Below are positions 2,646 to 25,644 of a stretch of 64,000 bases of DNA, piece by piece. The position numbers and the translations under genes are program-made. The stretch spans positions 3,844,001-3,908,000 of the forward strand of contig JAVLRN010000004.1 in NCBI GenBank assembly GCA_032821775.1, in the 5' to 3' direction. The stretch is from Sanguinoderma infundibulare (taxonomy: Eukaryota > Basidiomycota > Agaricomycetes > Polyporales > Polyporaceae). Within the stretch, counting starts at the first letter, position 1, and each line of letters opens with the position of its first letter. The notes under the pieces are model-generated. The model was given only the letters and a program-made list of their open reading frames with translations, did not search any database and had not been told where the DNA came from.

Positions 2646-2929
2646 AACGTAGTACACTGTATATGCTGGTCAGCCGGCGGGGATAAAATGATATAAGTGC
2701 TGTTGGGCCGGTCGGGGCCGGCCTTTGGACTGTAGTCGAGACTGTCTACCGGCCGAGCAGTTCTGATATTATCAAGACTATCCACCGGCCGAGCAGTACT
2801 GATATAATCCATGTTCTAGGGGTGTACCGTCGCTGTTTTCACCCCTGATAGGTGCCAATTAAATCTACCATTCAAATTTGCTTCAGTGCGCATTGATATG
2901 AGGAGCAGTTACCCGACTATCGGAGATGC

Positions 2930-3140
2930 AATAGGGGCCCTAGGTATGGAAACATCTGCCCATATCTCCACCAATTCTTCACATAATTGTGCGCTGAAGG
3001 GTGGGTTGGAATCGTGATTTTTATCTGGTTCCAGCGAGCCCTTGATTGTAATGATGCTACTGTTGGTTGCCCAGATATTGCGATCCTGTCCTTCCTGGGA
3101 GGAGGAGGGGTCGCCATATCTCAGCAATCAGACCTCGGAT
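2930..3140 (-). repeat. dispersed hairpin-bearing repeat, copy 1
   Basis: On the minus strand this reads GAGATATGGC, then a CCTCCTCC/GGAAGGACAGG hairpin, then CAATCAAGGGCTCGCTGGAA. The same order of elements occurs on the plus strand at 33895-34100 inside the 1.5 kb TIR element. The sequence is diverged but clearly related. Its position just inside the left edge of the KDZ element suggests either a nested insertion or a shared module. Confidence 0.55.
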
Positions 3141-3992
3141 CGCCTTGTTTTTGGTTCCTACTCGTAGTTACTGATGTCTAGTTTATGGGACCATTAATGT
3201 TGCCTCGCTGCATTCGCTGTATGTATGTCAGCTATGCGGGCAAATACTGCTTTCCGGCCGGGTGGCATAGCCACACACATGCATCGGCCGGCCGGCATGC
3301 AACTGTTAACGCAGGTATACTTATCGCTTTTCGCAGAGCCATACTAATATTTCTGTGGCTGGGTTCCATCCATCGGAGTTCACGAACCTACATGGATTCT
3401 CCGGAGTACTATCCGCGGCACCGCATACCAGGCGAGTAGTGACGTCCGGCCATGCAGCGTAGCCCCGTACATGTACTCGCCGGCCGGAGTGCAACCTTTA
3501 ATACAGGTATGCATCTCTTCCAGGGCCCCAGAGCGCTTCTGCTTGATTGGTGTACTCCGGCTGAATGACATTATGCTCTGTTGCCGTTAGGCTTGCTGGC
3601 AGTAGGCATCACCTTCCTCAGTCCGCCATACCTCAGGCATTCGCTCTCCGGTGACCGGCCGCATGACATTTCCCATGACTGGTTAGCCACGGCCGTGCGG
3701 CATCGACATTTGCACCAGCTGACCGCCCGGAGTGTGATGTATTATTTAAAGTAAGTATTCATTGGAAGTCGCATGTTACATAGCAGTGCTACACCGGGGA
3801 GGGTCTGGGACTGGATCTGCCCACTCCGGAGCACATGTCAACTAACATTGAATTTCTTCTCGCCCATTTCATATACATGCTCATGCCTGTCACCCATCTG
3901 AGCAATATTCATCGTGGTACAAACCACCTGGCTATCGAAGTCTGTTTACACATTTCATAATGTGAGTGACTTAATAGTGCCACTGCTACAAG

Positions 3993-4071
3993 CTGCCATG
4001 GCGTAGTGGTCTACGCGTCTTCATGAGCGCTACCTGCACTCGTGAAGCTCTGGGTTCGATTCCCACCACGG
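3993..4071 (+). other. tRNA-like sequence in left subterminal arm
   Basis: An A-box-like TGGCGTAGTGGTCTACGCG and a perfect B-box GGTTCGATTCC are spaced as in a tRNA gene, and the D-arm can pair (GCGT with ACGC). No normal acceptor stem forms; instead sequences outside the boxes pair partly with CCACCACGG. Two related copies lie inverted in the right arm (23641-23716 and 23985-24060). It is probably a tRNA-derived module or pol III promoter carried by the transposon, not a functional tRNA. Confidence 0.5.
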
Positions 4072-4242
4072 TCCTGAACCACAATTGTAGCATGTTTTTT
4101 TCTAGATGAACCGTGCTCAATAGCACGACCGGGGTGTCCGCTCTGCAATACCCTCGGTCGCATGTTCGATTACTAGGGTCCATTTGCACAATTATTAATT
4201 TGAGCAACTCAATAGGTCTTTAATAGTGAGGCGACTGGTACT

Positions 4243-5100
4243 CGCAAATGTCACCCGCCCTGGATGCGACGTCCCAAAACAGGTATGTGTGCACGTCGAC
4301 TCTCCAACTGACATTTCATTGTTCTGAACACATGTATTGCCGTACACTAGGTCATGCTGCCTGACGGGAGGGGGGGCCGGCTGGATGGCGTTCGTGGCAG
4401 CTGTCTGCGTCCGGCCGTGCGTGGTTCGTACACACAGATGTCACCCGCCCGGGATGCGATCTCGTATTCCAGTTATGTGTGCACCTCGACTCTCCGAAAA
4501 TTCTCTGTGTGCTCTGACCGCTCAAGTTACTGATATTTTATTCATCCGGACACGTTTATTGCAGTACAGAAGTTCGTGATCCCTCATCGGGGGGGGACCG
4601 GCCGGATGGCATTCGTGGGTGCCCTCTGCATCCGGCCGTACACGGTTCGTACTGGCAAATGTCACCCGCCCGGGATACAACGTCGTATTACAGGTATGTG
4701 TGCACCTCGACTCTCTGAATATTTTTTCTGCATCGTCTGACGGCTCCGACTAACTTTTTATTCTTCCAGACACATTTATTGCAGGACAGCAGTGTGCGAT
4801 CCCTGACCGGGGTGGGGACCGGTCGGATGGCATTTGTGGCGGCTGTCGGCGCCCGGCCGTGCACAGTTCATACACACAGATGTCACCCGCCCAGGATGCG
4901 ACGTCGTATTACAGGTATGTGTGCACCTCGACTGTCCGACCTTTGTCTGCGTCATCCGACGATTCCAACTGACATTTTATTCTTCCGGACACGTTTATTG
5001 CAGTGCAGTAGTTCGTGATCCCTCACCCAGGTCGGGACCGGTCGGATGGCACCTGTGGCGGCTGTCTGCGCCCGGCCATGCGCGGTTTGTACGCACAAAC
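4243..5100 (+). repeat. tandem ~215 bp subterminal repeat, four units
   Basis: Units begin with a form of TGTCACCCGCCCGGGATGCG at about 4243, 4440, 4663 and 4880, and run to about 5100. Each contains CAGGTATGTGTGCACCTCGA, a T-rich stretch ending near TTTATTGCAG, a GTTCGTGATCCCT block and the CCGGCCGGATGGCA motif. At least two units recur inverted at ~23100-23530. GTATGT and TTGCAG match fungal splice-donor and acceptor consensus, so each unit could be read as exon-intron-exon. Confidence 0.8.
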
Positions 5101-5309
5101 GTACTAATTCTTCGCTGGACATAAGTAGATACTGGGGTGAGATGTAAGTAGTAGCGTGAGGTGGAACGCAAATAAAATCAATCATCAGTTGCCAGCCATG
5201 GTCACATTGGAAAAAGAAGGAGTCCAGAGGTGGTAAAAATGTCCACCCCCCACGTGCAACATTGTAATATAGGTAGCTATGCATGTCAAGTCCGCGATGC
5301 TCCTCTGTC

Positions 5310-6345
5310 TCAGCGATCTTCTCCATCCTCTGCCAACCCCGTCTCCAATGTACTCCAGATGGTCATGGCTATGTGGGCTCTCGACGTAACGATAACGCCG
5401 TATGCTCCCCAGTGTTCAGGTGCGTAACTGAGGGCTGCAGAACGAGCAGTGCGCATCCGAGTATCGAGCGCTTCCAACTCAGCAATGTCAGCAGATAGCT
5501 CTGCCTGCTGCTCCCGAAGATACCGGAGCACGTCATCCCTATGTCTGTCCATGTACCCCTCTTGAGCGAAAGGCTCCGGAGCAACACCGGTGGCCGGAAG
5601 TTCCGGATTCGATATCTCCTCTGGAGATGACATATTACCTAAATGCGAAAAGCTAGGCCTCCTCGGGTCACTGACATGGTGACAACCTAAAACGCTTAAT
5701 GATCACGTACCTAGCATCTATTCCTTGGCTGGGAGCCCCATCCGGAGCTCCGGGGCATACGCTTGCAGTATCTGTTGCGCCGGCATTCTCGTCGAGGTCT
5801 TCATCCGTCCCGTAATCCACCAACATTGATGTCGCGAGCTGAGGGTCGCAGCTGTCTTTGTCACGCAACACGCCAGCCAAGGTATCACACCCGTAATCCA
5901 CGAATGCGGATTGGCAGTCTGTTGTCGAAGCCGGGGGCTCCGAAGGAGAGCCGTCGCCATCACCCGGGTCGGAGTCTGAGCTGTACATGACCATCGCGGA
6001 TATGTTGGCCCACTCCTCACTGTCCATGAACAATACAAATTATAATCCCGCCGTCTTATGAATCAGAACGCATATTTACCTAGTTTCGCGACCCGACGAC
6101 TGGCCATCCGGTATGTTCAGCCTGTCTTCGGTATCTTCGACCACCACAGTGTCCGGGCGCATGCGGGGGGGTGTGGGCAGTGTCAAATGCATGCGCTTGA
6201 CAGACACCCGACTTTCTGAGCCTATAGATTAATTCACATCATAAATCAGTCAGTAACGAAGCACCGGTGACCACGAACCCTCTGCAGCTGGGCCTTCGTC
6301 AACGTCCCCTCATGGGCGCTTTGAACGGCGTCGTTTACTCCCCAT
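5310..6345 (-). pseudogene. uncharacterised KDZ-element gene A (in-frame TGA)
   Basis: Reading leftwards from an ATG at 6345, the product would begin MGSKRRRSKRP, a strongly basic nuclear-localisation-like start. It then meets TGA at 6310-6312 and continues in the same frame into an acidic, Pro-rich segment across introns with good GT/AG sites (SESRVSVKRMHL, then EEWANISAMVMYSSDSDPGD). A last open segment (MSSPEEISNPELPATG to LAEDGEDR) has a coiled-coil-like middle. Its joining phase to the previous exon could not be reconciled, so it may be a separate small gene. No family is recognised. The basic start suggests a nuclear or DNA-binding helper of the transposon. Real coding with one lesion is favoured, but a different upstream exon structure is possible. 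Confidence 0.5.
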
Positions 6346-6618
6346 GTACGGATCGAGCTAAAATATACGATCAGTACATCATCGTGTTGCTTGAAAGTTC
6401 CGAAGTTAACTCACCACTCTGGTAGACCGACCACGTGAACTTCGACTCACACGAGGAATGGCAACAGGCAGAACACAGAACAGATATCCTGGTCGGATGT
6501 GCCACCGGGACCGGCGTCCGGGAGGCCCCGGACCGTGGCGGACCTGTAGACCACCATGCTCTGATCGCCAGGCAGTTTGCCTACACCTCCACCCCATCCC
6601 ACCACATATCTTGCCATC

Positions 6619-9600
6619 ATGTCCACTCGCGGAACCACTCAGAAAAAACAACCGCCTCCCGCGCCAACTCCGGAAGAGATTCAAGATGTCCGGAGGCTCG
6701 CAAGTGAATTGCACTTCGCATGGGCCGCAAAACCCCGCCTTGATTCCCCTCACCGCCAGAGCTGGGACACTTGCTTTTGCCACACTCTCGCTACTCTTAC
6801 CCAGCGGCTTGCAAGGTTGTGCTTCAGTCGCCTTCCGAGGCTCACGATGGGTGCCATCTGGGAGAGTAACTCCGCCCATCGAGAACGTCGCGCACTCATT
6901 AACATTAAGTCCATCGCACCCGTCGACGTCAGCCACCCATCCCTCAGCCCCCCCCCGGGTGTTCCCAAGCTTCCCTTCACACCGGATGATCAAGGAGACG
7001 TTGGGCTTCTCCACGAGGAGGAGCTACCGAACAGGTGGTGGGTTTATGAGGCCTCAGGTGCGCACCTCGTCTTTTCTGGTGATAGAAAAAACACTCACGC
7101 CCGCGCATACCCCTCATCAGCCCCACCTGTGACATCGGGCGCGCCGCAGATGAAGCAAGCCGCCGCACAGCCATCTACGGGCCATCAAGAGCCTATCCAG
7201 CGGCCCAATCAGTCCGCAACGTCCCTTGATCAACGTATAGTCCCCGGAGGTATGAAGAAGGCCAACAGTACGGGGAGCCCATACGTTTTGCTTCCCGTTC
7301 GAGCCCCTCCCAGGCAGACCTCGCAGTCGCCCACTAGCACTGTGGCGGAGCCCAGTGCAGCTCCAGCCACCTCCATCGGAGGGAACTCCACGCCTCGTCA
7401 CGCTCGATCTGCAAGTCGCACTCGATCTGCAAGTCGTGCGCGAGGTGCAAGTAGTGTGCCCCGCGCAGCCGTGGCCGTCGACGTCGACATTGCGCCTCTC
7501 GCTCCCCCGTCTCCGAAGGCTACCTCATCCAAGGCCAAGGGCAAGGGGAAGGCCGTTGCGGCAGTGGCTCTCAAGGCTCTGGAGCCATCGATCGCGCAGA
7601 CGAAGGGAAAGGTGACAGAGCGTGCTCAGCCTCAGTCGTTCCCGGACAAGTACGTCTTGCCGGAGGAGAAAGTGCATTGGGAATGGCTTCTTCACGTACG
7701 TCATGTGCTATCATCATATATACAACTGCATCATATCATGTTCCTCCAGCCTGCTTCATGTAAAAGCTGCTCCACCGCGTCTCGCCCGTGTTATCTCTGT
7801 CCTCTCGTGTCATCCAGCTGCCATGCGTGCCACAAGGGCAGGACTAAGTGCTCCCTTACTGTCCATGCTTCTCACCCAAGCACTGCGGCCTACCTCGCCT
7901 GGGTCTACTGGCGCACGCTCAACGATCCCCAGCAATACCCTTCACCTCCCTTCTCCCCCGGGGAAGAGGCTCCTTCCCAGTATCCTCCGCAGTGGTTCTC
8001 CGACCAGTACAATCTATATGATGCAAACATGCGCAAAAAGGGTCCCCCTCCACCTCGTGATCCCCCCTCCCCTCGTGCTGGGACTGCTCTGGCCTCATTT
8101 CCAATTGGGGGAGCCCACTCGCACTCGCCCATGCTGTCTGTTGGTCCTTCCGCCGTTGTATCATCTCCTCGCCCCATGAATGTTCCGAGTTCCCTGCCCC
8201 CGACCCTCTCTTCTGCCGCGCCCCCTCGAATCACGTCCGAGGTCGACATGGATGTTGATATGGCGGATGATACTTTCGCTATGGAGCTCACCGTTGACGT
8301 CGATCGCATCTCACATGCGTTGGATATCGAACAACTGGAGGTCTCCATGCAAGATGCTCCGAATGACCTTGTCGAAGAGAGCGGGTCTCATGGGCTGCCG
8401 GATACGGACCGTCATCTGCAAGCTTCCGGCTCCGAAGTTCCAATTCATTGCGGATCTCAGCTCGACGACGACGGGCCCTTGACGAATGAGGCTCCGGTGG
8501 CCCACTCCCCGTCTCGGTCCCGCAGCCCGAGGAAGGACGATCGCCCAGTAAGGTACGTCAACGCTAGCACCATGCCATCGGAGTTCGTGCGCACCGATAC
8601 CGCGCGTGTACCCCCTGAAGAACTGGACTCCGGCTCGGAGCGTGGGGAGGCTCTCCTCCCGCAACAGGTTCCCCCATTGTCAGGTATGTTACTCGAGACC
8701 TTTAATCTGATTATATGCCTTCGTCCTCTTTGTTTTCACATGTACAACCTGTCAACGTCGTACGTGTATCTTCCGGGCACGCTGCAGCTGCGTTCTACTT
8801 CCTCCCGCTTGCCCTTGTGTGTTTGCTTGGTGCCTTTTGTCGTCCGAGTTCCAGTTGCAGGGCAATTGATTTATTCACACTGTTCTAGGAACATGGTGGG
8901 ATCTCCCTTGGCTCACAGGGGACGCAGATCGTACCCGTTGCGCTCGCCCCGAAGCCACGCCGGAGACCCGTGAAGAGTTTCTGCATCTTCGTGGACTTCC
9001 CCTTGAGGCGCCGGAGGGTCCCTCAAGCAACCCCTTGAGTCGTCCCTCCACTCCACCCTCCAAAGTGTTCTATCTCAGATTGGAGACACTCAAGTTGGTG
9101 GACGACGCGCGTGAAGGTTTTACAGACATCGAGGGTCTCCCGGAGGCCTCTCAACGTGTTTCAAGCCGTCTCCGGAAGCTCGAGGACGGGGTTCGCACGG
9201 CTCGGCGCAATGCGATGCTCACCGCAAACGAAACGACCAGCTTTCAAGCGTGTTATGAGCAGTTGTTCTTCCAGATGCAAAACACCGCAAAGGACCTTGC
9301 CGAGACCACCACGACAGTCGCCACTGTCTCCGACAACGTCGGGCGACTCGCCAAGGCGTTCCGTCACGTCCCTACGATCCCTATTCACTGGCCTGCGCTC
9401 CTCGAAATGCTGGAGGTGCTGCAGCGGCTCCACAGCTTGTACCATGAGATGTGGCGTCGATACAACTCTTTGCGCGAGGACATCCGACCCATCCGACCCG
9501 ACATCGCCCGCATCGACCAGCTGTTGTTCAAGATGGGACTTCAGTTCACCGAGCTCTCAGTCGACGCCAAGTACATGTTGGCGCCCGAGCTTGAGTCGCT

Positions 9601-10288
9601 GAAGGCCAAGCTCATAGAGGAGGTCAGGGGTGTTGGCCGCTCCGCCGCAACATCGCTTCAATGCATGGCCGACGCGCTTGCCGATGGTGGTACCGCCTCC
9701 CAAGAGGCTTCGGATCGGCTCCGGCAGGTGCTCGAGACAACACTTACTTCGTTCCAGCATGCGGCCGGACGACTCAACGTGCATATCTCGCAAACTACGC
9801 ACTCGGCATTCGAGGAGATTCCTGGTTGGATCCAGGACCTCAAGGGGCATGTACGGGTCCTCGAGAGCCTCCATTCATCACCTCACCATGATGCCGACAT
9901 CCTTCCAACCAGCCCGTGGGCGTTGACATCAGCCCTCCCAATGCCCCCGCTCAGCAGCACTTCATCCTTTTCAATTCCCGCCCGGAATCTGGCCCCGAGT
10001 GCCTCTCGAACCTCTGAAGTCGTGGAGGCCCTGCACAGCCTCACGGAGCGTGTGGCGGCCCTCGAGACTTCTCAAACAGATCAGTTCAATGCAAGCGTAG
10101 ACGCACGGATTCGGGAGTTTTTGGGGCAGTTCAATCTCGGAGACCGCGCGCTTTGCCTGCTCGGAGATCCAGTGACGCAGTCCCGTCTTGCATGGGGCTC
10201 CGGAACCCCAACTGGTGGGAAGGTGGTGCCGGACACCTGCAGCGGGACTGGATTTTCGTTTGGCATGTCTCATTCCTCAGACACGTAG
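6619..10288 (+). CDS. uncharacterised KDZ-element gene B: low-complexity, Cys-cluster and coiled-coil protein
   Basis: The ATG at 6619 (MSTRGTTQKKQPPP) opens a frame of about 1150 residues. A small in-phase intron is likely at 7696-7749, and a clear one lies at 8684-8888 (GTATGT to TTCTAG), joining SG to TWWDLPW. Order of parts: a Pro/Ser/Ala-rich N-terminus with repeated SASRTRSAS-like units; a cysteine cluster (CKSCSTASRPCYLCPL, then CHACHKGRTKCS) just after the first intron; an acidic middle; and a C-terminal third of long helices (roughly residues 700-1000) typical of coiled coils. The Cys cluster resembles the binuclear zinc clusters of fungal proteins but is not a canonical Zn2Cys6. It is convergent with gene C, with 103 bp between stops. 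Function unknown; a structural or DNA-binding partner of the transposon is inferred only from context. Confidence 0.7.
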
Positions 10289-10391
10289 CTACCATGCATG
10301 TCCTATATCATCCAATCAAATCTGTTCTGCTCACACTCAACCTCAGAGATACACGTCGATGCCATTGATTTAGAGTCCATACAAAAAAAAC

Positions 10392-13300: not shown

Positions 13301-13460
13301 TCAACAGGGTCTCCTGCTCGCCACGTTTCTTGATCATCCACTTCGCGATTGCCTCGCGGAACGCTGTCTTGTTTTTGGCACTCGTCCTTCGATACTCTGC
13401 GTGACGAGCCTCGAGCATGGCTTCGTCCTCCTCGGTGAAATCATCAATGTTGGTGGTCAT
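10392..13460 (-). CDS. uncharacterised KDZ-element gene C, large acidic/basic-tract protein
   Basis: The minus-strand ATG at 13460 (MTTNIDDFTEEDEAMLEARH) starts a gene of about five exons encoding roughly 950 residues. The N-terminal third has a conserved-looking globular part (WGRRNQHTIKVAMPPEKSKK, then RKFWNFFSTVLYP). The centre has Lys/Gly- and Glu-rich tracts (EEEEEEEEEE), and the C-terminus is Pro/Ser-rich with basic patches ending GGVASTKS. Introns with good sites lie near 12320, 12720 and 12900. Exon 2 contains a run of eight A (13186-13193 on the plus strand as T8) at which the frame must change to continue; nine A would keep it open, so there is either a lesion or a homopolymer sequencing error. 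It is divergent from the TET/JBP gene across 458 bp. The charged tracts suggest a nuclear protein. No family recognised. Confidence 0.6.
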
Positions 13461-13918: not shown

Positions 13919-15234
13919 ATGGACGATGCAGGGCCGTCGGGCCTGCTTCCACCCTTGTTTCAGCATCGGGCATGTGTGGCGCAATACATTCTTGCGCTAT
14001 TCCATTTCCATCGCAACCGGGCGATGTCCGACAAGTCGGTCAGCTGGTCTCGCCCCACACCGCCACCCATATCTTTCGCGCTAATGGAAGAATCCGATGC
14101 TATCACTCGAACGCTGGCCCGCGCTGCCAAGAATAAATGTGAAGATTTTTGCATACCTTGGAGGGCTTGTTGCTGATTTTATTCAGATGCAGTGACGTGG
14201 ACGGCGGAGGAATACGCCATGGCCCTCCCGAAGAAAGCCTTGCTCGGGGAGGAGAGGGAGAACGAGCTGCTGCAACGCTTTCCCCCCTTGATCCCATCTG
14301 AACAAGTTATCGGACGCACAGATTCCCTTCCGGTGGTGCCAGATCCCGCCCTCTTTACCGACAGTAAAGGGAATATTCTAGCGTGGTCCCTGCCTGGAAT
14401 CATTTCCCGATTGCGTCAGGTACGGGTACCCTGATATGACAAGAGCTCCGCTTGATTACAAGTCCCGTAGGACATCATTCTTCGGGCCACAGAGTATCTC
14501 AAGCCTTGTCTCCAGGTCAAGAAGATGCCCGAAGATGATGCGCCCACGAAGAACTGGCGGAACTCTGACCGGTTCGTGTCCAAGACGCCCGAGTGGGGTG
14601 GAGGGACGTTATTGCTCTTTCCGGCAGGATTTCAGCAAGGTCATACGGTATGACACGCGACTCCGGTTGATTGTCACGTGTCTGATCTCTTCTGAAACAG
14701 GGTAAACGCTTTGAGCCCATGCCTTCGAAGAACTGCGAGACTGATCAGTGCCGCGAGTGGATGGCTGCTTTGGAAGAGTCTAGCGGCTTGCTTGATGGGA
14801 TTCTCGCGGTAACGCACCCTCGGCTGTACATTGCAGCGCAGGCACTTATTTCCAAAGTCCTCGTTCATGGTGGTCGATCCGGTGCAGCTATGGCTCACTG
14901 GCCGTCATTGTACAACTCCGTCCATCTCCTTGTCAACCGTTCGACTCTGCGTCATCGCGACGTCGGTGCATTGCCCGGTTGGTTGGACATGCTTCTGACA
15001 TTGGGAGATTATGACCAGCGAGGGGTACTGGAGCTCCGAACGTTCGGAGTGTGCATGCCATATGATAGTGGGACGGTATGCATGCTATCATCTCGGGTCG
15101 TGCAGCACGGTGTTCCCACTGTCCCCGGTGACAGGATTTGCTATGCATTCTACATGGTTGCGCATGTTCAAGCATGGTTTGATATACCTGATCCGGGCAT
15201 GGTGCAATTGGATGATGTACATCGTATCGCATAG
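13919..15234 (+). CDS. TET/JBP-family 2-oxoglutarate/Fe(II) dioxygenase
   Basis: Predicted to oxidise 5-methylcytosine (or thymine-type bases) in DNA in the nucleus, as known for TET/JBP enzymes. Four exons (13919-14138, 14187-14419, 14471-14647, 14701-15234) splice in phase to 387 residues from MDDAGPSG. The double-stranded beta-helix active site is visible: HxD as H295-R-D297 (context STLRHRDVGALPG), the distal iron ligand H346 (VVQHGVPT) and the 2-oxoglutarate-binding arginine R355 (PGDRICYAFYM). Introns are 48-53 nt with standard sites. There is no CXXC domain, so it is the short basidiomycete form. It ends 92 bp before the transposase on the same strand, the arrangement expected for transposon-linked TET/JBP genes. 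No stop or frameshift is seen, unlike its neighbour. Substrate and activity are family inference. Confidence 0.88.
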
Positions 15235-15326
15235 AATCTACAGCTGCCCAGATTGTTTGATTACATCCAATGTCGGTGTGCCTCTCCTCAACGCCACCAA
15301 CCTCTCCACTGACATCAACATTGGAG

Positions 15327-18300
15327 ATGTCCAGACGTCGGTTTGAGGTAGTGGAGCCATACGAGGAACTTACCGTTCATGTACGCCACTCTTCCCGCCG
15401 CAGAGAGCGGGTGATCACCAAGAAGGCCCGCCTCGAACTGCCCAGAGTTTTGCGACGCGGGGAAGCCTCGTCCGAGCCAGCAGCCCAGCCAGGACAGACT
15501 ACCGAAGGACAGAGGGCAGAACCACATGCGCATCCATCGCAACAGGCGATTTGGTTGCCTGAGGTTGGCGATGGCCAGCAACTCGGGTTTGAAGAGATTA
15601 CCTTCGAACCACAACGACGGAAGGGCAAGGTAAGTGGAACACTATGTGCCCCACGCCCGCCTGAACTCAGGCCTATTTCTTAAACGGTATTGTAGTCTCA
15701 AAATGACTTCCAGCGCGAATTCCTGGCAGTCAGGGACGAATATATGCACCGGACGATCTCTCTGGAAGCCCTGCCTTTGGACGGCATTGGAACGTGCGGC
15801 CATCCAGCGATATGACGCTGTATGACATGTCATGGCAAGCCGACGTTCTGCGCGGTCTGCTGCCGTCATCGCCATCTGGACCAGCCTTTGCACCGGGTCA
15901 AATACTGGCAGGGTGCCTACTTTCAAACTGGCTGGCTCCGTCAGCTCGGCATACAGATTCACGCAGGCCATGGCAGTCAACCCTGCCCATACCTAGCGAC
16001 ATATCCCCTTGCTGCCCACGACCCCCCCCCGAGACGCATGCCGGAGGCTCCGGAGCTCGATGAGGAAGGAGAGCAACTGCCATTCCTTATCGAGGACAAC
16101 CTTTCCGACGTAGACGATGAAGACGGTGACCTGTACTTTGATCCGGATGAAGAGACCTCTGCGCATGACACTTCCGACCTACCGTCGTTCGAACATTGCG
16201 AGCCACCACTCGGAGCCACCATGGCTCAGGCCGCAATGTATAGCGGGGACCGTATGATGGTCATTGTCGACGCGGACGGCATTCACGAAATATCAGTAAC
16301 ATTCTGTGCGTGTCCGAATGCTCCGCGCAAGGACCTGCAGCTTCTGGACCTCGGCTACTATCCCGCGTCCACCATCCGGCCTTGCACAATGTTCTCGCAG
16401 AAACTCTTAGACGACTTTCTTCTGGCCAACAAAGAGTGCAAGACTCCGGCGCGGAACTATTACAACAAATTGCGAAGGACGACCAACCCTGCGTTTCCGC
16501 ATTTGGTACCGGTGGGTCAACATTGATTAAGGCTTCCAGAGACCGCGAGATTCATACCGGAGCCACAGGATCGATACAAGGAGCTGCTCCGAATGTCCAG
16601 ACAATGGCGGAATCTCCGCCTTCGCCGCGATGCGGGATTCGGTCACCGCTCAGACCCCGTAGGGCCCGGAGACCTCGCGGTGCGATGCCCTGCATGTCCG
16701 CAACTGGACATCAATCTACCGGAGGGTTGGGAGAGTGACCCGGAACAGTAAGTAGTTAGGTTCTCAGCGTACAAGCATTTGCTATACACCTCCGAGCGCA
16801 CTAGGTTCAAGTACATGCGGTCGGTGGTTCTTGATGGCAACTTCAGCGCGCAACACCATCACATGCGATGTCCCGCTGGCGGATGGACATGGCTTCATGG
16901 TAGAAGATGCCCCATACAAGGAACATCTGAAGACAGCAGCCGAGTTTGCCGAGGTGCGGTATACGACATAAGGCTCCAGAGGGCATAGCTCACAATAGAC
17001 AGTAGAAGATCACATGCAACGACCATCGTGAGGTCCTCAATGCGTCGGTCGGGCGGGCCAAGCTGGAAGCCACTGGTATCGGGGCTGGCGCATGCTCCCG
17101 GCATGGTTTCTTTGCTCCGCACGCATGTATGGACTTCCAACTAGGTGAAAGGTAGGTTCGCATCCGAACCCATGGTGGAAGGTGGCCAAACTCACTCCCG
17201 TTCACAAAGACAGAGAAACATGGACTACATTCTGCACTGGATATTCGCCAACCTCAACGGCCTAACATGCGTACTCGTGATCTACGATGTCATGTGCCAA
17301 TACTTCATTCATCTCCTCGACCGGTTCCGTGAAAGCCCCTGCCTGCGAATGCCTCTTGGCTTGAACATCTTGCGGGGCATTGGTCAGTTTCACGTACATG
17401 GTCATGTCCCACGATGCTTTCCACAATTCTCCTGCAACTTCATCTCCGGAGCTGGAGTACAGGATGGGGAAATTCTCAAAACCCTCTGGAACAAAATCAA
17501 TGCAATCGCTGACTCCACTCGGGGGATGTCGTCAGCACACCGGAGGGAGGTTATTGACGACACGATGAATGATTCAAACTGGATGAAACTAATGCGAATA
17601 AGTACACAAATCAACAAGAAGTCGTGCCGGTCACTGATTACATACAATGACAGCAAGTACGCTCATGCGGAAGTGGCGGCGGGCTTGCAAGGAATGGCAG
17701 CCAGTCGTGGATGCGTTCAACAGGTTGTGCGAGGCGAGTGGGCCGACACAATGCAAGGAGTGGAGACAGGAAGCAGTTGCGGCCGATGAGGCTCGAACAG
17801 AAGATCCCAGTGCAATGGACATATATGATGTGATGAAGCAGCCCCGTGAGTCACCCTTGCGTTGTACTCGCCGTAGAATACTGACCGGTAAATCAGTACC
17901 CAGCCGGAAGGACAAGGAACTTGCGCTCACCCAGGAGGAGACGGGGGCAGAAGAGTCAATAGTGGGTGCGGCCTCGTGGATCTCTGCGGGAATCCGTCTG
18001 GAAGAACGGAAGTGAGTGCCTCACTATCCTAGGAGCAGCATAGAACTGACGGCAACGGTTGGGATAGGATTGGGATTGCGTATACTGCGCGCGCCATGAT
18101 GGCTACCTCTGGTACCAATGCACGATTGAGCCTGGAGACTCACCGGCAGAAACTCGCCACGGGGATTAAGGCCTTCCACAAAGCATCAGACAAGCATCTG
18201 AACATTTCCGTCAGCGCAAATGGTGTCCCTGTGACAGCTGATGTGACTGACTTCGGCGAGCAATGGGACGACGAAGAAGTGCGCCAAGCACGGGCAAGGT

Positions 18301-19150
18301 CCAGGGATATCGAAGACCTGCTTCAGCTGGAACATCAGCTGATCGCCCTTCCGTCCACGCTGGGCTACCCCTACCTCAAGCAGCGGGGGCTACTGTCGCT
18401 GGCAGAGACGGAGCGGGAGCTCCGAGAAGGTCAACTCAATGACTGCCTCCAGGGCATCCGGACGGAAATCGGATACAAGTCCCTTATTTATCGGAAGAAA
18501 GTGCGGAAGGCAACCTCATACCGCAAGAAGCTCCGAAGTTTCGACGAACTCAGGGTGACCGACGAGAGCCTGATGAAGCACGTATGAGTCTACGCCCACG
18601 CCCGCAAATGCTTACAACATCTATTCGACACGGACCCGGAGAATCGCGAGGATGCGCAGCTCCGGGAAAGGCTGACAGATAGATACAAGGAGATCAAACG
18701 CGAGGACCTGCGCACCAGCACCACGGTCCTCGAGCAGTTTACGCAGGGCCTCCGGGATGTCCATGCCTCTTGGATATGGCAAGTAGAGGACTCCAATGAA
18801 ACTGATGGGCCGGGATGGCTTCACAAGTGTGAGTGAAATGCCTCCGGTGGAGTACGTGTGCGTGCGGACTAACCACTTCTATTTTACGAATAGTCCGTCG
18901 CATGCTCTGGCTCCGGGCATACTCCAGAAAGTGCCGTTGGGAAGAGGAGATCAAGCTGGTTCCTTTCGAGATGGAAAGTACCGTCCAGTCTTTCCAGACG
19001 GCCTCGGAGCATTGGAAAACTTGGGCGGAGGCAAGCGAGACTAGGGGGCATCAAGCATTTGCTTTGCGGCAAGTCTCCTTGTGGAAGGGACTCCGTGAGC
19101 ACGCAACGGCGGCATTTGCAGCGGCGCAAGGGAGAGATCAACCATACTAA
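15327..19150 (+). pseudogene. KDZ transposase with CxC2-like cysteine cluster (degraded)
   Basis: Ten exons can be traced from MSRRRFEVVEPYEE to AAQGRDQPY. Order: basic N-terminus; cysteine cluster (RCMTCHGKPTFCAVCC) and LHRVKYWQGAYFQTG, typical of the CxC2 region of KDZ transposases; acidic insert; RPCTMFSQKLLDDFLL and CKTPARNYYNKLRR; the catalytic core with first Asp in VVLDGNFSAQH, second Asp in LVIYDVMCQY and Glu in DGEILKTLW, plus DSTRGMSSAHR; and a helical C-terminus. Lesions: in-frame TGA at 15813-15815 before the Cys cluster, a frameshift with a short deletion near 16866 after DGNFSAQH, and TGA at 18585-18587. Introns at 16512-16568, 16954-17005, 17152-17209, 17602-17653, 17846-17896, 18012-18067 and 18829-18893 all keep phase. 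The ~33 nt intron near 16735 is uncertain. Sequencing error at all three sites is unlikely but not excluded. Confidence 0.88.
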
Positions 19151-19278
19151 GCGCCCATAGCTCTTATCTGATTGCCACTGTAATATATGGATGCCGGTGT
19201 CGTTCTCTTCCATTGCGCCATCAACCGTCATGCTAGTTATTTGCTGGAGCATCTTCCCGGCCAGGTACAGTCGTGACT

Positions 19279-20014
19279 ATGAACACGACACAACCACCGT
19301 TGCAAGCGTCTACCACCCTGTGGGGGTGTCGAGCGGAGATTCTGCTTACGTTGAGACGCATCCAGAAGGCACTGGTAGCGTTTCCTTCCTCTCCGGAGGA
19401 GATAACGCTGAGGCGATGGAACCATGAAATTGCCCGGGAACTCGTGAGTCTGACTTTGGCCAGGAGGGCATGAGTTTGCTGATGTATCATGTTGCCAGTG
19501 GAGCACGATACATGCGACAGGAGTCGAGGCCGCTGTGGCGTTCGACGAGAATAAATCGAATCGTGGTTCTCAGTCTGTTCAGCTGCCCGCACCACTGCAA
19601 GCCCTCCTTTCCGGCGTGACGTGGACGGACGGCCGGATGTCATTTGATATCACGCAGTTAGACCAAGAGTCCTACCTCCGGATGACCGCAGGCCTGGACA
19701 ATGTCGCCGGAGACGTTGGACATGAATGGGGCTTCGCGCAGTGGTGGCTCTGGGATGAACGTGGGGCCCCGAGGGGACGCCCGAGCTGGTGGAGGGATCC
19801 CGAGAAGTTTGTGGTAAGAAATTGTGTTTGAGAGAGACGGGGCGCTAACTCCTGCTTCCAGGCTGCTCCGATCCCGATGTTCGAGCAAGATCTAAATGAC
19901 TGGAAAATGGGCATGGAACGTGTGAGTGACGGGATCATGAGGACTATCAACCGAAAGGAACAGCGGATGAACGCACTTACGAGCCAGATGGCCGAACTTG
20001 GAGAGGACAAGTAG
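19279..20014 (+). CDS. uncharacterised KDZ-element gene D, small protein
   Basis: Three exons (19279-19443, 19499-19813, 19862-20014) joined at good GT/AG sites give 210 residues from MNTTQPPLQAS. The middle exon has a Trp-rich stretch (WGFAQWWLWDERG, then RPSWWRDPEKFV). The last exon is a charged helix ending TSQMAELGEDK. The gene starts 128 bp after the transposase stop, on the same strand, so it may be the distal gene of the transposase block. No homologous family recognised; an accessory role in transposition is inferred from position only. The upstream in-frame GTG at 19273 is less likely than the ATG. Confidence 0.6.
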
Positions 20015-20059
20015 AGGTTTCGGAGTCGAAATGGGCGTATGGGATACCCATAGAATAAG

Positions 20060-20345
20060 TCCATCAGATGTGTTTGTAATTTTGCAGAGACTTCGGAGCT
20101 TGAAGAAACTGTTGCGAAGGTGTTGCCAGGACTGCAGCGCGGCCGGACGGCGGATGTGTGCATGTATGGCACGCGGCCGGGCACTCCGGGATAGGATGTG
20201 CCCACTCAGGAGGAAATGTCAACTAACATCGATCCATGCTCATGCCCGCTACCCGGCCAAGCGATATTCATGGTCGTACATACCACCATGCTCTCGAGGC
20301 GTGTTTACCCATTTAATGATATGATTGCAACCGTGGGGGCACGTA
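20060..20345 (+). repeat. internal direct copy of the subterminal sequence
   Basis: Matches 3816-3978 of the left arm in the same orientation. Shared landmarks are TGCCCACTC, ATGTCAACTAACAT, ATGCTCATGCC, the GATATTCAT block and GTGTTTACCCATTTAATGAT. CGGCCGG motifs sit at ~20140 and ~20173. Together with the inverted right arm it brackets genes E and F. Confidence 0.7.
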
Positions 20346-20866
20346 CGTCCTTGCCGAACTCGATGGTACTGTATTCGATCGCCCGGTCGCGGCGTTCCGA
20401 GTGCTTCCTCACTTTGCGTGAACGGAGCCACTGCTGGTTTGAACCGAGGCTTTAGACGTTGATCAAACTCATATTCGGGAGATGGAGGAGTCTCAATATT
20501 CGGGCGAGGGGAGCGAGGGGGTAGACAACCTGTCTCTCGCTGAAGAACTTGCTTGATTGCAAAAGTCACGCACAGGCCCGACGCGTGCGCGCGCACGTAT
20601 TGTGCGTTGCGCTGGGATTTGGTTTCTTTTATTTTCGGCATCAGCTCGTGTTTTGGATTCAGTTTTGTTCCGTACGGAACCCTCGCTGTTCGTCTTTCAG
20701 CGGGGGGGATGCAGACTTCACTCAGTGTTTCTTTCGACTTAATTGACGCGGGTTGAATCTCACTGCAAGACGGGGTTCGACTGGCTACGCAATTCGACAA
20801 GAAAAATGTTCGGTCCACGACCTTTTACCTCGCGCGTCGTTTGCGCGAGTCTTCCCGCGACGCTCC
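20346..20866. other. intergenic stretch, no gene seen
   Basis: About 520 bp between the internal subterminal copy and the 3' end of gene E. It has CG-rich simple tracts (GCGCGCGCACG) and short open frames without coding character. Nothing recognisable. Confidence 0.4.
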
Positions 20867-21558
20867 CTACTCCATCTCGACATCGTCCTCGCCCTTTGCG
20901 TCCTTGTCACTCCACTCGTTCTTTTCTTCGTCCTCCTCCTTGACCGTAGGCGCGTTCGGCCCCTCGCCGGTGCACCAGTACTTGCCGGTCACCATGGACC
21001 GGACCACTGTGCAACCTTTTTAGTGGTCAGTCAGACGGGGAGAACGGACGTTTACTTACAGGCGTACTCCGCGATGGACAACGCGTCCAACGCGGCCTCC
21101 AGCCGGTCCTTGGCGGTGCGCAAGCGGCCGGCAACGCCGACGGCGTAGCCAGGGTTGGTGTGCGCGAGCGACTGCGCGATAGAATGGCTGTGGAGCTCCC
21201 AGGCGGTCCGGAACTCGTCGCTCGCGCGGTCGAACTCCTTGCGAGCGGCGGCGTAGCGTTGTGTCTGGGTGTACGTCGAGTACATGGCGGTCAGGTCGTA
21301 GATTGCGCGGGGGTTGTACAACCGGTCGTTTTCGAACGCACGAAGGCCGCCGAGGAATTCGTGGAAGAGGGGGTCCGCGTCGGCATCGGCGGGAAGGCCC
21401 CGCACGATGGACATGAAGTTGGCGGCAACGGCGACGACCTGGTGGTGGTGGGGACCGAGCCGGCCGTTCGCGTGGATGGTGCCAAGCACGTCGTCGACGA
21501 GCCTGCGCAGGAGGGCAGTGGCGACGGAGTCTACGTTGGCGTCGGTGAGCGCGGGCAT
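20867..21558 (-). CDS. uncharacterised helical protein, KDZ-element gene E
   Basis: The minus-strand ATG at 21558 (MPALTDANVDSVATALLRRL) opens exon 1 (21060-21558). A GTAAGT...CAG intron (21007-21059) joins in phase to exon 2 (20867-21006), ending in an acidic tail (KGEDDVEME), for 212 residues. The body is mostly alpha-helical, with heptad-like stretches (AARKEFDRASDEFRTAWELH). An alternative start 20 codons upstream adds a low-complexity leader. It lies head-to-tail with gene F on the same strand; both have similar helical composition and may be related. Function unknown; probably transposon cargo. Confidence 0.6.
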
Positions 21559-21786
21559 GGTGGGCGGTGGTGTGAGGGATGGTGTGTGTGCGAGGATGAG
21601 CGGTGGGCAAACTGACAAGCTATTTTGTTCACGGGCTACCTACAACACGCAGGGTCTAACTGCAACCTCGCGCCTTCGCTTCCGACAGGGTCCAAACCTA
21701 GCGTCGAACTCGTCCCTTTTTGGCAATCATCATCCTTCTTACCTGCGTCCTCAATCTTCCTCAATGACTTTGCCGAGGCCTTCTTT

Positions 21787-22424
21787 TTAAAGATAGTAGT
21801 CCTCGCGGTCGGTCACTTGGAAGTTCGTCGCGCTGAACGCGCGCGCCGTTTCGATTTCGGCAGCTGCAGTTTGGGCCACCAGTTCGTTCACGTCTGCTGC
21901 AAATCCGGGGTTCGGAGGATCAAGCCGCGAGACCAGGTCCCGTAATTCAATGGCGTTCGCTTGGTCCCGACGAACTCGCACAAGGCGATCACGAGTGCTT
22001 TTGATCAGGATGAGGTCCTGCGCCTGCCCTACGTAGCGGCGCATGGTCCGGGCCATCTTGAAAGCCAGCGGAGCGAGTTCCACGATGTCACGCAATCGCG
22101 TGAACAACACCTCGACACCGATGGGAGTACTTCGAAAGCACCCCAGGACCCCGCGTTCGCAGCCAGGTACATCTTCCGGTGTGGTTCAGTAGCTGTCAAT
22201 CAACCTAGGCGCTGCGGGCGTACCAAGTCTTCGACGATGGTCTTTACCTCATGTTCCAACACTGGCCGTGCGTCGCCGGACGCGATTCTGTTCGCCAGCC
22301 CGTCCAGCCGTCGTTGGACTTGGTTTTCGAGCGCACTGTTCAGGCCGAATGAAGTCCGACGGAGCTCCTGGGCGCCCGCGAACGAGTCCTGGAAGGGAGG
22401 CAGAACTTGAAGAACCAGCGGCAT
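21787..22424 (-). CDS. uncharacterised helical protein, KDZ-element gene F
   Basis: Two open segments on the minus strand look like exons of one gene: MPLVLQVLPPFQDSFAGAQE to TIVEDL (exon 1, from 22424), then a segment around LFTRLRDIVELAPLAFKMAR ending DREDYYL (stop at 21787). A GTACGC donor follows exon 1, but I could not find an acceptor that keeps phase, so the internal boundary is uncertain. The helical, charged composition resembles gene E just downstream. No family recognised. Confidence 0.45.
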
Positions 22425-23060
22425 GATGAGCGTTACGGAATAATTGGGCGCTCGTGTGGTTCTGACTTCTTCCTTTAAGCTTCTCGGAACGTTCTCCTCT
22501 CGCGGCGTCCATTACGACACCAGCTCCTTTGGTATCCACTCAGGTTGGGCCTCGTATTCAAGCCCTAGGCCCTATTCTTCCTCAAAGGCTCCCATGCCCC
22601 TCCTCAACTTCGCCCAAACCGCTTTTGGATGCGTTCGAGTGGGTCGCACGACTGCGTGACCGTGTTAGCCGATCAAAACCTTCGTCACCGGAGATCACTT
22701 TCGAATTCCTTCCCGGATTACACGGAGCTGTGCTATTTGTACACGATGACGATCCTTACGTCATTCCTCGTCGGAACTGGCACCGTACTCGTATTCGTCG
22801 GTCTTCAGGGTGTCACCGACGCTCATGTTACTCTCGTGTCGGCTTCCCCGGACACGCTCGTAGCGCTGTTGCACGTTCCGGTAGTGGTTCAATTTGACTT
22901 CCGGGTTTCTTCGACGATGTGGTCAAGGCGCGCGCTGCGCGACGGCACGGGGACTGGCACGTGCGAAGCGGCAGGGTCCAGCACATGTGCGCGCGCGAGG
23001 GCGACTGTTTGCGCGTTCACCCGTCATTTCTGGAGCCCACCGCACGAATATAAATGTATT
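22425..23060. other. intergenic stretch upstream of gene F
   Basis: About 630 bp without a convincing gene. CG-rich, with GCGCGC tracts near 22930 and 22990 and scattered short frames. It presumably contains the promoter of gene F; no motif identified. Confidence 0.35.
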
Positions 23061-23640
23061 ACATGTCAACTGCGTGTCGAGAGGAATATGGAATGTGTAT
23101 CACGAACTACTGGACTGCAACAAATGTGTCCGGAAGAATAAAACGTTAGTCGGAGCCAAAGGACAACACAGAAATGAGTCACACAGTCTAGGTGCGCACA
23201 TACCTGTAATACGACGTTGCATCCCGGGCGGGTGACATTTGTGGGTACGGTCGGTACACGGCCGGATGCAGAGCACAGCCACGAATGCCATCCGACTGGT
23301 CCCCACCCCAGCGAGGGATCATGAACCGGTGTACTGCAACAAATGTGTCCGGAAGAATAAAACGTTAGTCGGAGCCGAAGGACAACACAGAAACGAGTCA
23401 CACAGTCTAGGTGCGCACATACCTGTAATACGACGTTGCATCCCAGGCGGGTGACGTTGGCGAGCACAACACGCGCACGGCCGGTCGCAGTGTGCCACCA
23501 CAAATGGCGTCTGGCCGGTCACCGCTCCGGTGAGCGCAATGGCCCTCTTAAAAATGTTTTGAATTGTTGAAGTTAATAGTCGTGCAAACAGACGCAGCAC
23601 AGTTATGTGGGCAAAAAAGACCTGTTGCTCGTGCATCAAC

Positions 23641-23716
23641 CGTGCCGGGAATCGAACCCAGGGCTTGACGAGTGCTGGTAGCGCTCATGAAGACGCATAG
23701 ACCACTACGCCACAGT
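23641..23716 (-). other. tRNA-like sequence in right arm, copy a
   Basis: On the minus strand an A-box-like TGGCGTAGTGGTCTATGCG and a B-box GGTTCGATTCC are present, with a pairable D-arm (GCGT/ATGC) and T-arm (CTGGG/CCCGG). There is no complementary acceptor stem, so it is a derived element, not a working tRNA. Confidence 0.5.
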
Positions 23717-23984
23717 ACCTTGTACCAGTACTGCTACCAAACGCCTCTAGTACTCGCCTCGATGGCCATAATCGTTACATCATTCCGTGGGCTCCGGTCG
23801 GGTGGCATCTTGGATTATTGCTGTTCCGGGCTGGCAGTACACTGTGGCGGGGCCGGAAGGTAGTGGCAGAATGAACAGAATACTACTTGTGCAAATGGAC
23901 CCTAGTAATTGGGTGAACACCCCGGTCGTGCTATTGCGCACCGTTCATCTGAAAAAAAAAACTTGTTACAACTGTGGTCTAGGA

Positions 23985-24060
23985 CCGTGGTGGGAATCAA
24001 ACCCAGGGCTTCACGAGCAGCGTAGCGCTCAAGAAGACGTGCAGACCACTACACCACGGG
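23985..24060 (-). other. tRNA-like sequence in right arm, copy b
   Basis: Same plan as copy a. Here the outer sequences CCGTGGTG and CACCACGG are perfect complements, closing a hairpin over the A- and B-box-like segments. The B-box is GGTTTGATTCC, one base from consensus. Confidence 0.5.
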
Positions 24061-25339
24061 AGCTTGCACCAGTACCACTATCAAATCCCTATTGACTCAC
24101 GCACATCATTAAATGTGTAAATGCACTTGCATAACCGGGTGGCATGTACGACAATGAATATTGCTCAGAACAGGTGACAGGCACGAGCATGGATATGAAT
24201 TGGGCAAGAAAACATTTAATGTTAGTGGGCATGGGCTCCGGAGTGGGCAGATTGAGTCCCAGACAGGCCCCGACGTGGGACGCTACATGCGACTGGGGTT
24301 GGATAGTTACCTTAGAGAATATGTCACGCACCGGGCGGTGAGCAGGTGCGAGTGTTGATGCCGTACGGCCGTGGCGAACCGGTCAGGGGGAATGCCATGC
24401 GGCCGGCCACCACAGAGGGAATGCCTCAGGTATGGCGGACTGAGAAAAATGATGCCTGTACACTGTCGCGGGGCTGGATGGTAGCTGCAGAACAAACAAA
24501 ACTCCCGCCAGATGATGTCCACAGTCATATGTTCGAGGGGCCGGATGGCACACGCACTGACCAATGGCGACCGGCCGGACATCAGACAACGACTCCAGAA
24601 GGCAAGCACACATCGGTCAGACAGTAGGTGTCAAAGGGCCGGGATACATTTGTAGGTATGTGTGCTGACCGGCCGGGTGGCACCAGGTTTAACCGGTGTG
24701 CATAGGTGCCGAATTGACATGATGGGTGGCATGTACCCACCATGTGCTGACTGTGGAAGAAACGACGGAAAAACTGGAATATGTGTAAGGGAGGGCGAGC
24801 AGCGGCCGTACGATAGTACCGGCGACCATGATGCCCCAGCCGGATGGTAGCCACTGCTACCACGGGTTCGCGCGCGGATGGTGGCAGCAGCTACCATGCT
24901 GAACCGGCCGGTCGGCAGCAGCAGCTACTATCACAAGCCGGCCGGACGGCATTAGTAGGCACCATCCGCCACCGGCCGGCGATCATCTATGGTTTACACG
25001 TTAATAGCACCCCCGGTCATTCACACAGGGAAGTGGAATCAATGAGTACACCATGACCTGTATGCAGAAATCCAATCTAAAAGTAAGCACGGACGGTAGA
25101 CGGCCACCGTTGGATTTTGAAAGCCCACCGGCCGCATGGCGGAATAGAGGATGAAATTGACAGCGGCCGGGCAGCACTTGCGGCAAAATCACAGGCCCCG
25201 GCCCGCGGCGGCTCGACAGTAATTATGGCATTTTCTCCCCTCCGGCTACCTTACAATTGTGGTGATTTTAGTGGAATGGTCTGGGAGAATGCCCCTCATA
25301 CGCAGCTATCGGCTTTCATAGCTTCGCATCAGTAAAGTC

Positions 25340-25640
25340 GGATTTTGCTTAACGGCTTAACGGCTTAACGGAAAATGGCCATCCTCCCCCCCGGATCTTG
25401 GTGGATATCCTGGGCAAACTTCTACCTCCAACGTGTCGAGGAGACATCTCTTTGTCCCCCGCCGTGTGCCAGTCAGAGTGCGGGCGAGCGGTGCTGGTAG
25501 AAGGGAGGTCGTCAGTGGCGGCACTTACGGGCGCTTCGAGACCTGCTTACGGCTTATCGGCTTATCGTGCTTAACGGCTGCTTAACGTGCTTAACGGTGC
25601 TTAATGGCCCCGTTAAGCACGGTTAAGCAATTTCCGGAAG
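25340..25640. repeat. GCTTAACGG-type short repeats at right edge of the element
   Basis: GCTTAACGG or near forms (GCTTATCGG, GCTTAACGTG) recur about ten times. The stretch ends in a small palindrome TGCTTAA...TTAAGCA directly before the F-box homology resumes. No counterpart is seen at the left edge, so this may be a separate insertion or the true end structure of the element. Confidence 0.6.
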
Positions 25641-25644
25641 TACT

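Follow-up and report, generated by a model that had tools for sequence, protein, structure and literature searches.

The window, a stretch of 64,000 nucleotides from Sanguinoderma infundibulare, carries what we identify with high confidence as a TET-bearing Kyakuja (KDZ) DNA transposon of giant size, endowed with a conserved A-B-C-TET-KDZ gene cassette. The complete explanation, in which this cassette would serve both mobility and escape from methylation, includes parts that we infer and is, taken as a whole, probable.

The element occupies positions 2635 to 25283 on the forward strand (22,649 bp, CACACA...GGTCTG), as determined from the alignment borders against six other copies, and is flanked on the left (2628-2634) and on the right (25284-25290) by the 7-bp target-site duplication GGAGAAT. 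The genome contains seven full-length copies including that in the window, the other six being 97.3-98.6% identical, each at its own site and with a private, perfect 7-bp duplication, which fixes the edges and replaces the bounds 2646-25644 proposed in the first-pass annotation. All seven have the termini CA..TG in the form CACACA..GGTCTG. The outermost bases match as terminal inverted repeats only imperfectly (10 of 12, by eye), and the long inverted repeats are internal. The examined copy of a second, divergent subfamily also has a perfect 7-bp duplication and a right-end motif similar to that of subfamily 1, which includes the window copy, while the exact ends of the third subfamily were sought and not located. 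Classification as Zisupton was rejected, as an 8-bp target-site duplication is expected there and 7 bp were found in 7/7 copies. That the region is a composite or a misassembly of neighbouring elements, a concern raised from the outset and suggested by the foreign sequence nested inside the element, is next to impossible: the same architecture recurs in seven copies at seven sites with private 7-bp duplications, which refutes that reading and in practice excludes an assembly artefact.

That the region is a single large KDZ transposon equipped with a TET/JBP gene was borne out by Pfam: single frames of the window copy match KDZ with E 8e-25 and Tet_JBP with E 7e-14. The transposase gene (15327-20014, forward strand) encodes a CxC2 cluster and a KDZ domain, which in the spliced protein of a sister copy match PF18803 with E 2e-22 and PF18758 with E 3e-44, respectively; sister copies indicate a length of about 1,100 aa in a short model or 1,270-1,320 aa in an extended one. 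In the window copy the gene is broken by two premature stops and a 14-nt gap relative to a sister copy, so the element is not intact as had been supposed, and the frame is open in 2/7 copies, by a model that ends before the Trp-rich tail. What had been described as a separate protein D (19499-20014, forward strand) is most likely this tail, encoded by the last, Trp-rich exons of the KDZ gene, judging from similar sequence on the same strand and in the same order in subfamilies 2 and 3; an independent gene is the less likely reading of a region that resembles the KDZ C-terminus in two other subfamilies.

The TET/JBP dioxygenase gene (14219-15234, forward strand; three exons, 303 aa) is open in 6/7 copies including that in the window, as its intact appearance had suggested. 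The protein aligns to the solved CcTET structure with E 6e-15, and the HxD motif, the second H and the R are retained, as is the residue at the position of Asp337. The protein's only matches in the PDB are CcTET entries; HxD is present as HRD, as in AG-type TET. The position aligned to Gly331 of CcTET is Ala in subfamilies 1 and 2 and Thr in subfamily 3, whereas Gly or Ser is given in the part of PMC12730594 that concerns it.

Our assignment to Kyakuja rests on the KDZ domain, the 7-bp duplications, the CA..TG ends and the AG-type TET. In the account of Kojima (2025, PMC12730594), as far as its relevant sections go, 7-bp target duplications are the hallmark of TET-bearing Kyakuja of Agaricomycetes, and two Laccaria families combine them with CA..TG ends. 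The element described here shares with those the 7-bp duplications, the CA..TG ends, the KDZ transposase and a CcTET-like (AG-type) TET; it differs in that the A/B/C gene set and the phased subterminal sites are found here only, compared with those sections of the text, and in that the subfamily-2 copy terminates in GGTCTC and not in TG.

Accessory genes have been described in KDZ elements before. In large size and accessory genes the present element resembles the giant KDZ transposons known from Ectocarpus and Chlamydomonas (PMC12477816, in the sections that describe them), in which, similarly, unrelated transposable elements are nested and fixed among copies and the transposase is often pseudogenised and can exceed 1,300 aa; those transposons, however, are algal, and these sections mention no TET cassette in them.

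Among the genes preceding TET, gene A (5310-6027, reverse strand, two exons in the gene model) encodes a small protein of about 219 aa. Gene B (6619-10288, forward strand, about 1189 aa) comprises a conserved N-terminal region, a six-cysteine cluster, a low-complexity linker and a conserved C-terminal region. The Zn(II)2Cys6 cluster has six cysteines with the spacing C-x2-C-x6-C / C-x2-C-x6-C, and the corresponding spacing (C-x2-C-x6-C..C-x2-C-x6-C) is present in 4/4 aligned B proteins. The Pfam Zn_clus profile scored 12.7 bits on the B homologue of Earliella, below the cut-off of 21, a Pfam scan returned no Zn_clus match in the B proteins of subfamilies 2 and 3, and profile-profile comparison of the cluster with Zn_clus by hhalign gave 11.5%. 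Gene C (10392-13460, reverse strand, 936-982 aa) has an HMG-like N-terminal region, a conserved middle, an acidic stretch and a conserved C-terminal region; in the window copy it suffered a 1-nt deletion in a T run (near 13185), and a T-run deletion is also found in one other copy. Comparison of C with the HMG box by hhalign gave 92.8% with a profile of six HMG boxes, against 8% for a homeodomain control, which lends no support to reading the WF.NN motif of C as a homeodomain. The Pfam HMG_box profile matched one of the two C proteins scanned below its cut-off (E 0.29), and a GTF2I-like match was likewise sub-threshold (E 0.003). An AlphaFold2 model of a C homologue had a pLDDT of 33 and was set aside, and in a scan of viral contigs for C none of 117 pattern matches was confirmed. 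Iyer et al. 2014 reportedly found that several KDZ-TET elements encode additional proteins, including one with a divergent HMG domain, and we take gene C to be, presumably, this protein. Homologues of C and B exist in other Polyporales, including Earliella (the two there each lie on a contig of 709,467 bases) and Cerioporus.

The order A (reverse), B (forward), C (reverse), TET (forward), KDZ (forward) is common to three divergent subfamilies, with A only weakly recognizable in subfamily 2, and is maintained even though B and C are only about 24-47% identical between subfamilies, depending on the stretch. C lies beside TET and KDZ at 16/16 places where it was found in the genome, these being copies of three subfamilies and not 16 independent events, and with Earliella and Cerioporus homologues as queries no place outside the 16 elements was found. 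All 16 KDZ loci that have TET within 5 kb also have C, and TET lies 2.2-2.9 kb from its own KDZ in each; the other 39 of the 55 KDZ loci lack C, apart from one neighbour's copy. B occurs with the same 16 elements, in 14 of them within 15 kb of the KDZ match, the remaining two being interrupted. A was found at nine places, seven in subfamily 1 and two in subfamily 3 (32% identity, E 5e-9), with weak relatives in subfamily 2 (27-29% identity, E 0.003 to 3e-4).

Of the six uncharacterised genes, A to F, that the first-pass annotation listed and proposed to look for beside KDZ and TET, A, B and C thus proved real and do recur there in this genome (C at 16/16 places, B at 14/16 within 15 kb), D is most likely part of KDZ, and E and F are related to retroelements. 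Proteins E (20867-21558, reverse strand, 212 aa) and F (21787-22424, reverse strand, about 174 aa) lie inside a segment (20308-23006) that is colinear with two Ty3-like retroelement loci (C3:431k and C8:288k; 62% over about 2.7 kb), and from this similarity they appear to be passengers of retroelement origin rather than genes of the system. It is therefore for E and F only that a view of the genes as unrelated host genes picked up by chance, after the manner of giant transposons that carry cargo, holds; for the whole set A-F we find it very unlikely, as A, B and C are arranged and oriented alike in the three subfamilies (A being weak in one) and C is found nowhere else in the genome, which at the sensitivity of these searches refutes it for C. 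That the set forms a DNA-modification system is a hypothesis.

Both subterminal regions, left (2635-5110) and right (23099-25283), contain CCGGCCGG sites, many of them phased at about 34 bp. The left region also includes a tandem array of units of about 220 bp (about 4239-5102) and the right one a 219-bp tandem repeat (23099-23534), and a subterminal inverted repeat connects 3604-4202 (forward strand) with 23876-24457 at 77%. The sites contain CpG, and the phasing near both ends, which is new to us, was observed in all three subfamilies: 24 of the 29 distances between adjacent sites of up to 100 bp fall in 31-36 bp (11, 9 and 4 in subfamilies 1, 2 and 3), compared with a mean of 1.3 and a maximum of 7 in 5,000 under a uniform null and a mean of 6.3, with 24 never reached, under a null that preserves clustering. 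Genome-wide, pairs of CGGCCG number 162 at a spacing of about 34 bp versus 33 at about 40 bp, and the reversed pattern gives 39. CCGGCC was not the top hexamer in the subfamily 2 or 3 flanks first tried, and in subfamily 3 it is less enriched (18 found versus 6.2 expected, 19 in the interior).

Among the seven copies, 78% of variant alleles are CpG transitions, the pattern to be expected when methylated copies decay. Naive dN/dS values were 0.30-0.74 and were dropped as evidence of selection after a CpG-aware test on the seven copies, in which purifying selection was not significant for A, B, C or TET and reached only P = 0.05 for KDZ; the case for selection on the cassette therefore rests on conservation between subfamilies. 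Such decay is not special to TET-bearing elements: it is just as strong in two KDZ families without TET within 5 kb, where 91% of the differences between two loci (L003 and L004) and 51 of 55 variants in a family of six copies are in CpG contexts, so nothing shows that TET protected the present copies. Older divergence looks different, as L002 is about 15% divergent from L003 and L004, with just 35-36% of differences in CpG contexts. Variants shared among copies of the present element are less CpG-dominated than private ones (160:84 versus 897:208, Fisher p 3e-7; in noncoding sequence only, 39:33 versus 228:49, p 3e-6), which would agree with an active phase of lower methylation; we keep this pattern apart from TET, since the TET-less control had only five shared variants.

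In the mechanism that we propose, the KDZ transposase would mobilise the element and TET would oxidise 5-methylcytosine, so that, in a host given to methylating transposons, an active element could still be expressed and mobilised. C, being HMG-like, and B, with its cysteine cluster, may be DNA or chromatin proteins working with TET and the transposase; the phased sites would be bound by at least one of B, the CxC2 cluster of KDZ or C, and their CpGs would render this binding methylation-sensitive. We suggest only tentatively, at less than even odds, that TET is steered by B, C and the phased sites. A self-targeted oxidative anti-silencing, in which B (or the KDZ CxC2) and C would read the CCGGCCGG sites and recruit the element's own TET, which would keep an active copy free of methylation as related copies decay through CpG mutation, seems improbable in this full form. 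In the sections of PMC10398659 devoted to VANDAL elements of Arabidopsis, the element-encoded VANC protein binds the element's own noncoding tandem repeats and causes silent marks to be lost; this is our model by analogy, with no homology claimed and with putative binding and demethylation, and it differs in that an oxidising enzyme is encoded here.

A quite credible alternative, though we would give it somewhat under an even chance, is that the role of B, C and the phased sites lies in transposition itself, in end recognition, synapsis or expression, and has no link to TET. The sites are concentrated near both ends, where a transposase or helper proteins bind, other DNA transposons have analogous subterminal-binding helpers, a CxC2 cluster is present in the KDZ protein itself, and B and C are retained with KDZ. 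C, however, is present at 16/16 TET-bearing KDZ loci and, a neighbour's copy aside, at 0/39 others, and thus tracks TET rather than KDZ in general, although this may simply mark one clade. It is also conceivable, if rather unlikely, that the main target of TET is the host genome, or a wide set of transposons, rather than the element that carries it. The function of transposon-encoded TET is described as lacking experimental validation in the relevant part of PMC12730594, where a survey in Coprinopsis is cited in which oxidised methylcytosine marks retrotransposons and centromeres as well, and where oxidation that is not target-specific is discussed; on the other side, 16/16 elements carry their own TET, as one would predict for a gene of benefit to the element that bears it.

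The analysis thus shows that a cassette has stayed together over deep divergence and that a retroelement and a DNA transposon have exchanged material. It suggests an element with its own means of resisting host silencing, and the idea of a transposon that steers its own demethylase is now testable, with A, B and C as defined partners and the CCGGCCGG sites as a candidate target.

The KDZ transposase match in the window (C4:3844001-3908000, where C4 and similar labels before a colon denote contigs of the 48.9-Mb genome) is part of a family that has six more full-length copies in the genome, and alignment of the seven places the ends of the window element at 2635 and 25283, which replaces the bounds of 2646 and 25644 proposed by the first-pass annotation. 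All seven copies start with CACACA, end with GGTCTG and have a private, perfect 7-bp duplication. They measure 22,456-24,301 bp, are 97.3-98.6% identical in pairwise comparisons, and four of the seven carry a 671-bp tandem duplication over the predicted gene E. Outside the element, the window contains two frames with MYND fingers (26386-27156 and 36488-37825), the first of which begins about 1.1 kb from the right end, and a conserved host gene for an HSP70 family protein (48287-49882, Pfam E-value 1e-184).

The genome search returned at least 87 KDZ matches, clustered within 3 kb into 55 loci, and 29 TET/JBP matches, with TET within 5 kb at 16 of the 55 loci. Gene C, searched with residues 1-407 of its product, was found at 16 places, each 4.8-5.3 kb from a KDZ match; one further KDZ locus has C within 10 kb, that C belonging to a neighboring element, and no C was found within 10 kb of the remaining KDZ loci. 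The C homolog of Earliella scabrosa used as a query recovered the same 16 places and that of Cerioporus squamosus 11 of them, and neither revealed a further place in the genome, a piece at C8:998k being counted with the C8 element. Gene B is present in the same 16 elements, in 14 of them within 15 kb of the KDZ match; zones of 15 kb around the KDZ loci make up about 3.1% of the genome. In one exception, the subfamily-2 copy at C8:997770-1010808, gene C itself is in two pieces about 11.6 kb apart, with other sequence between them; the second exception, on C2, has an entire copy of the window subfamily (C2:293663-316118) between B (C2:281k) and C (C2:323k), and the split pair (flanks C2:281k and C2:323-327k) looks like one subfamily-3 element, i.e. 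a Kyakuja nested in a Kyakuja. Gene A was found at nine places, plus a weak match in subfamily 2. The 16 elements form three subfamilies of 7 (subfamily 1, including the window copy), 6 and 3 copies, so that the independent support amounts to three lineages, between which B and C are about 24-47% identical, depending on the stretch, and KDZ is 74-79% identical over the best exon. The proposed association of proteins A-F with KDZ and TET is thus borne out in this genome for A, B and C, A being weak in subfamily 2. Neither the subfamily-2 element nor the 22 kb of subfamily 3 yielded a match to E or F. A further KDZ family (C10:382k, C12:100k, C18:188k, C2:4743k, C3:3953k) is followed about 19 kb downstream by a TET/JBP match, a distance beyond that in the A-B-C-TET-KDZ cassette, and possibly represents even larger elements. 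In other species, three protein searches, two of which limited scoring to the 7,994 candidates with the most shared words, identified C homologs in Ganoderma leucocontextum (two proteins), C. squamosus, E. scabrosa and Polyporus arcularius, and a B homolog in E. scabrosa; the Earliella B and C homologs are each assigned to a contig 709,467 bases long and hence probably share one contig.

Segment 20308-23006, which holds E and F, is colinear with C3:431k and C8:288k (62% over about 2.7 kb), where the adjoining frames encode an integrase zinc-binding domain at both places and reverse-transcriptase RNase H domains at C8. E and F, listed previously among the cargo genes, are therefore most likely, to judge from these sequence relationships, passengers of retroelement origin. 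At these two Ty3-like loci (C3:424500-434499 and C8:284000-293999, about 82% alike in translation), the E-F pair is located antisense to and downstream of pol, and its presence also in all seven subfamily-1 transposons makes this a case in which a retroelement and a DNA transposon have exchanged sequence. A 227-bp stretch (20359-20585), found only in the window copy among the seven, falls inside the retroelement-like segment and was thus most likely lost by the other six. Directly after the KDZ gene, 20185-20327 is a third copy of the subterminal repeat (similar to 3804-3968) with CCGGCC sites nearby, which suggests that the original right end began there, before the retroelement segment arrived.

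The genes were modeled with a small gene finder that allows for splicing and was trained on open frames of the element itself, hence exon edges are predictions; the order is A (-), B (+), C (-), TET (+), KDZ (+). Protein D, annotated initially as a separate Trp-rich gene product, resembles the region following the KDZ core in subfamilies 2 and 3, in the same order and strand, and is most likely the C-terminal part of the KDZ gene. With the model of the reference copy placed on the others, frames are open in six of seven copies for TET, five for B, four for C and two for KDZ, the latter scored on the c2 model, which ends at 19150, short of the Trp-rich tail; A was left out of the counts, since its reference model begins in a 150-bp insertion present in only two copies. 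In the window copy, TET and B are open, whereas KDZ is disrupted by two premature stops and by a 14-nt gap, the gap recurring in two other copies, and C has a 1-nt deletion (common to one other copy). A 1-nt difference in KDZ near 17614 falls in a predicted intron. The copy at C4:438k has all five frames open; we nevertheless do not call it intact, because the extended KDZ model could be fitted to it only with a detour in the tail.

The ends of the elements carry regularly spaced CpG-containing sites. No hexamer in the terminal 4.7 kb of subfamily 1 is more enriched than CCGGCC/GGCCGG (42 vs 3.2 expected), which occurs 15 times in the 18-kb interior; in the subfamily-2 element C2:3993545-4012838, whose ends are set by a perfect duplication, 21 of the 28 matches fall in the outermost 410 bp at either end; in subfamily 3, whose ends are not set, enrichment is weaker (18 vs 6.2 expected, 19 in the interior). 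Over six end stretches from the three subfamilies (the window copy for subfamily 1; stretches picked where sites cluster for subfamily 3), 24 of 29 adjacent distances of up to 100 bp are 31-36 bp, and 15 are exactly 34 bp. Under uniform placement, 5,000 trials averaged 1.3 distances of 31-36 bp and peaked at 7; with jittered distances the mean was 6.3 and 24 was never reached. Bases flanking the sites vary, with a weak GCA/TGC signal on the outer side. Since the subfamilies may share ancestry in their terminal sequences, the phased sites do not count as three independent inventions. Genome-wide, CGGCCG pairs at about 34-bp spacing number 162, whereas a spacing of about 40 bp gives 33 and the reversed pattern 39; among the 50 pair places listed, 39 fall in cassette elements (by element spans, two of them set by analogy), 8 outside, and 3 (C2:356.9-358.3k) are unplaced.

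CpG transitions account for 1,057 (78%) of the 1,349 variant alleles that distinguish the seven copies; they affect 27-28% of CpG positions, compared with transitions at about 1.4-1.5% of other C or G. The CpG transitions are strand-symmetric, stay at 21-32% per kb throughout the element and are seen in every NCG context, TCG being the lowest, as would be expected from deamination of methylated CpG rather than from hypermutation of the TCG type. The window copy retains a CpG observed/expected ratio of 0.97, which means that the copies are either young or were shielded earlier. Two KDZ families without TET within 5 kb exhibit the same CpG dominance between close copies, hence this decay is not special to the TET-containing element. 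CpG transitions make up a smaller share of the variants common to several copies of the element (2635-25283 and its six sisters) than of the private variants, as if an active source lineage were less methylated than the inserted copies.

The N-terminal region of C matches HMG boxes at 92.8% in profile-profile comparison (homeodomain control 8%), but the Pfam match stays under the threshold, with a GTF2I-like match equal or better. A divergent HMG protein in KDZ elements was reportedly described by Iyer et al. in 2014. An AlphaFold model of a C homolog was useless (pLDDT 33). B has six cysteines with the spacing of a Zn2Cys6 cluster in all four aligned proteins, with weak profile support. The TET protein matches CcTET, of known structure (7vpn, 8jkk), and retains the HRD motif, the second histidine, the arginine and the residue aligned to Asp337 (numbering after PMC12730594), with Ala (subfamilies 1 and 2) or Thr (subfamily 3) at the position of Gly331. 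According to that paper, both residues aid 6mA recognition and Asp337 is essential for 5mC, hence activity on 6mA appears doubtful and on 5mC plausible.

TET-containing Kyakuja (PMC12730594) and giant KDZ elements with accessory genes, nested transposons and dead transposases (PMC12477816) have already been published, as far as the covered parts of these papers go. No description of the A-B-C-TET-KDZ order or of phased CCGGCCGG sites was found in the covered parts of PMC12730594, PMC12477816, PMC8889193 and PMC7473861. Regarding the mechanism, selection within the seven copies gives no clear signal after CpG correction, there is no sign of TET protecting its own copies, and the domain support for B is weak, all of which count against it. 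What the sequences show is a mobile element of defined boundaries whose cassette genes stay together, with phased sites close to its termini and copies that decay at CpG; in the proposed mechanism, TET would counter methylation, B, C or the KDZ zinc cluster would bind the phased sites, and TET would be steered to them.
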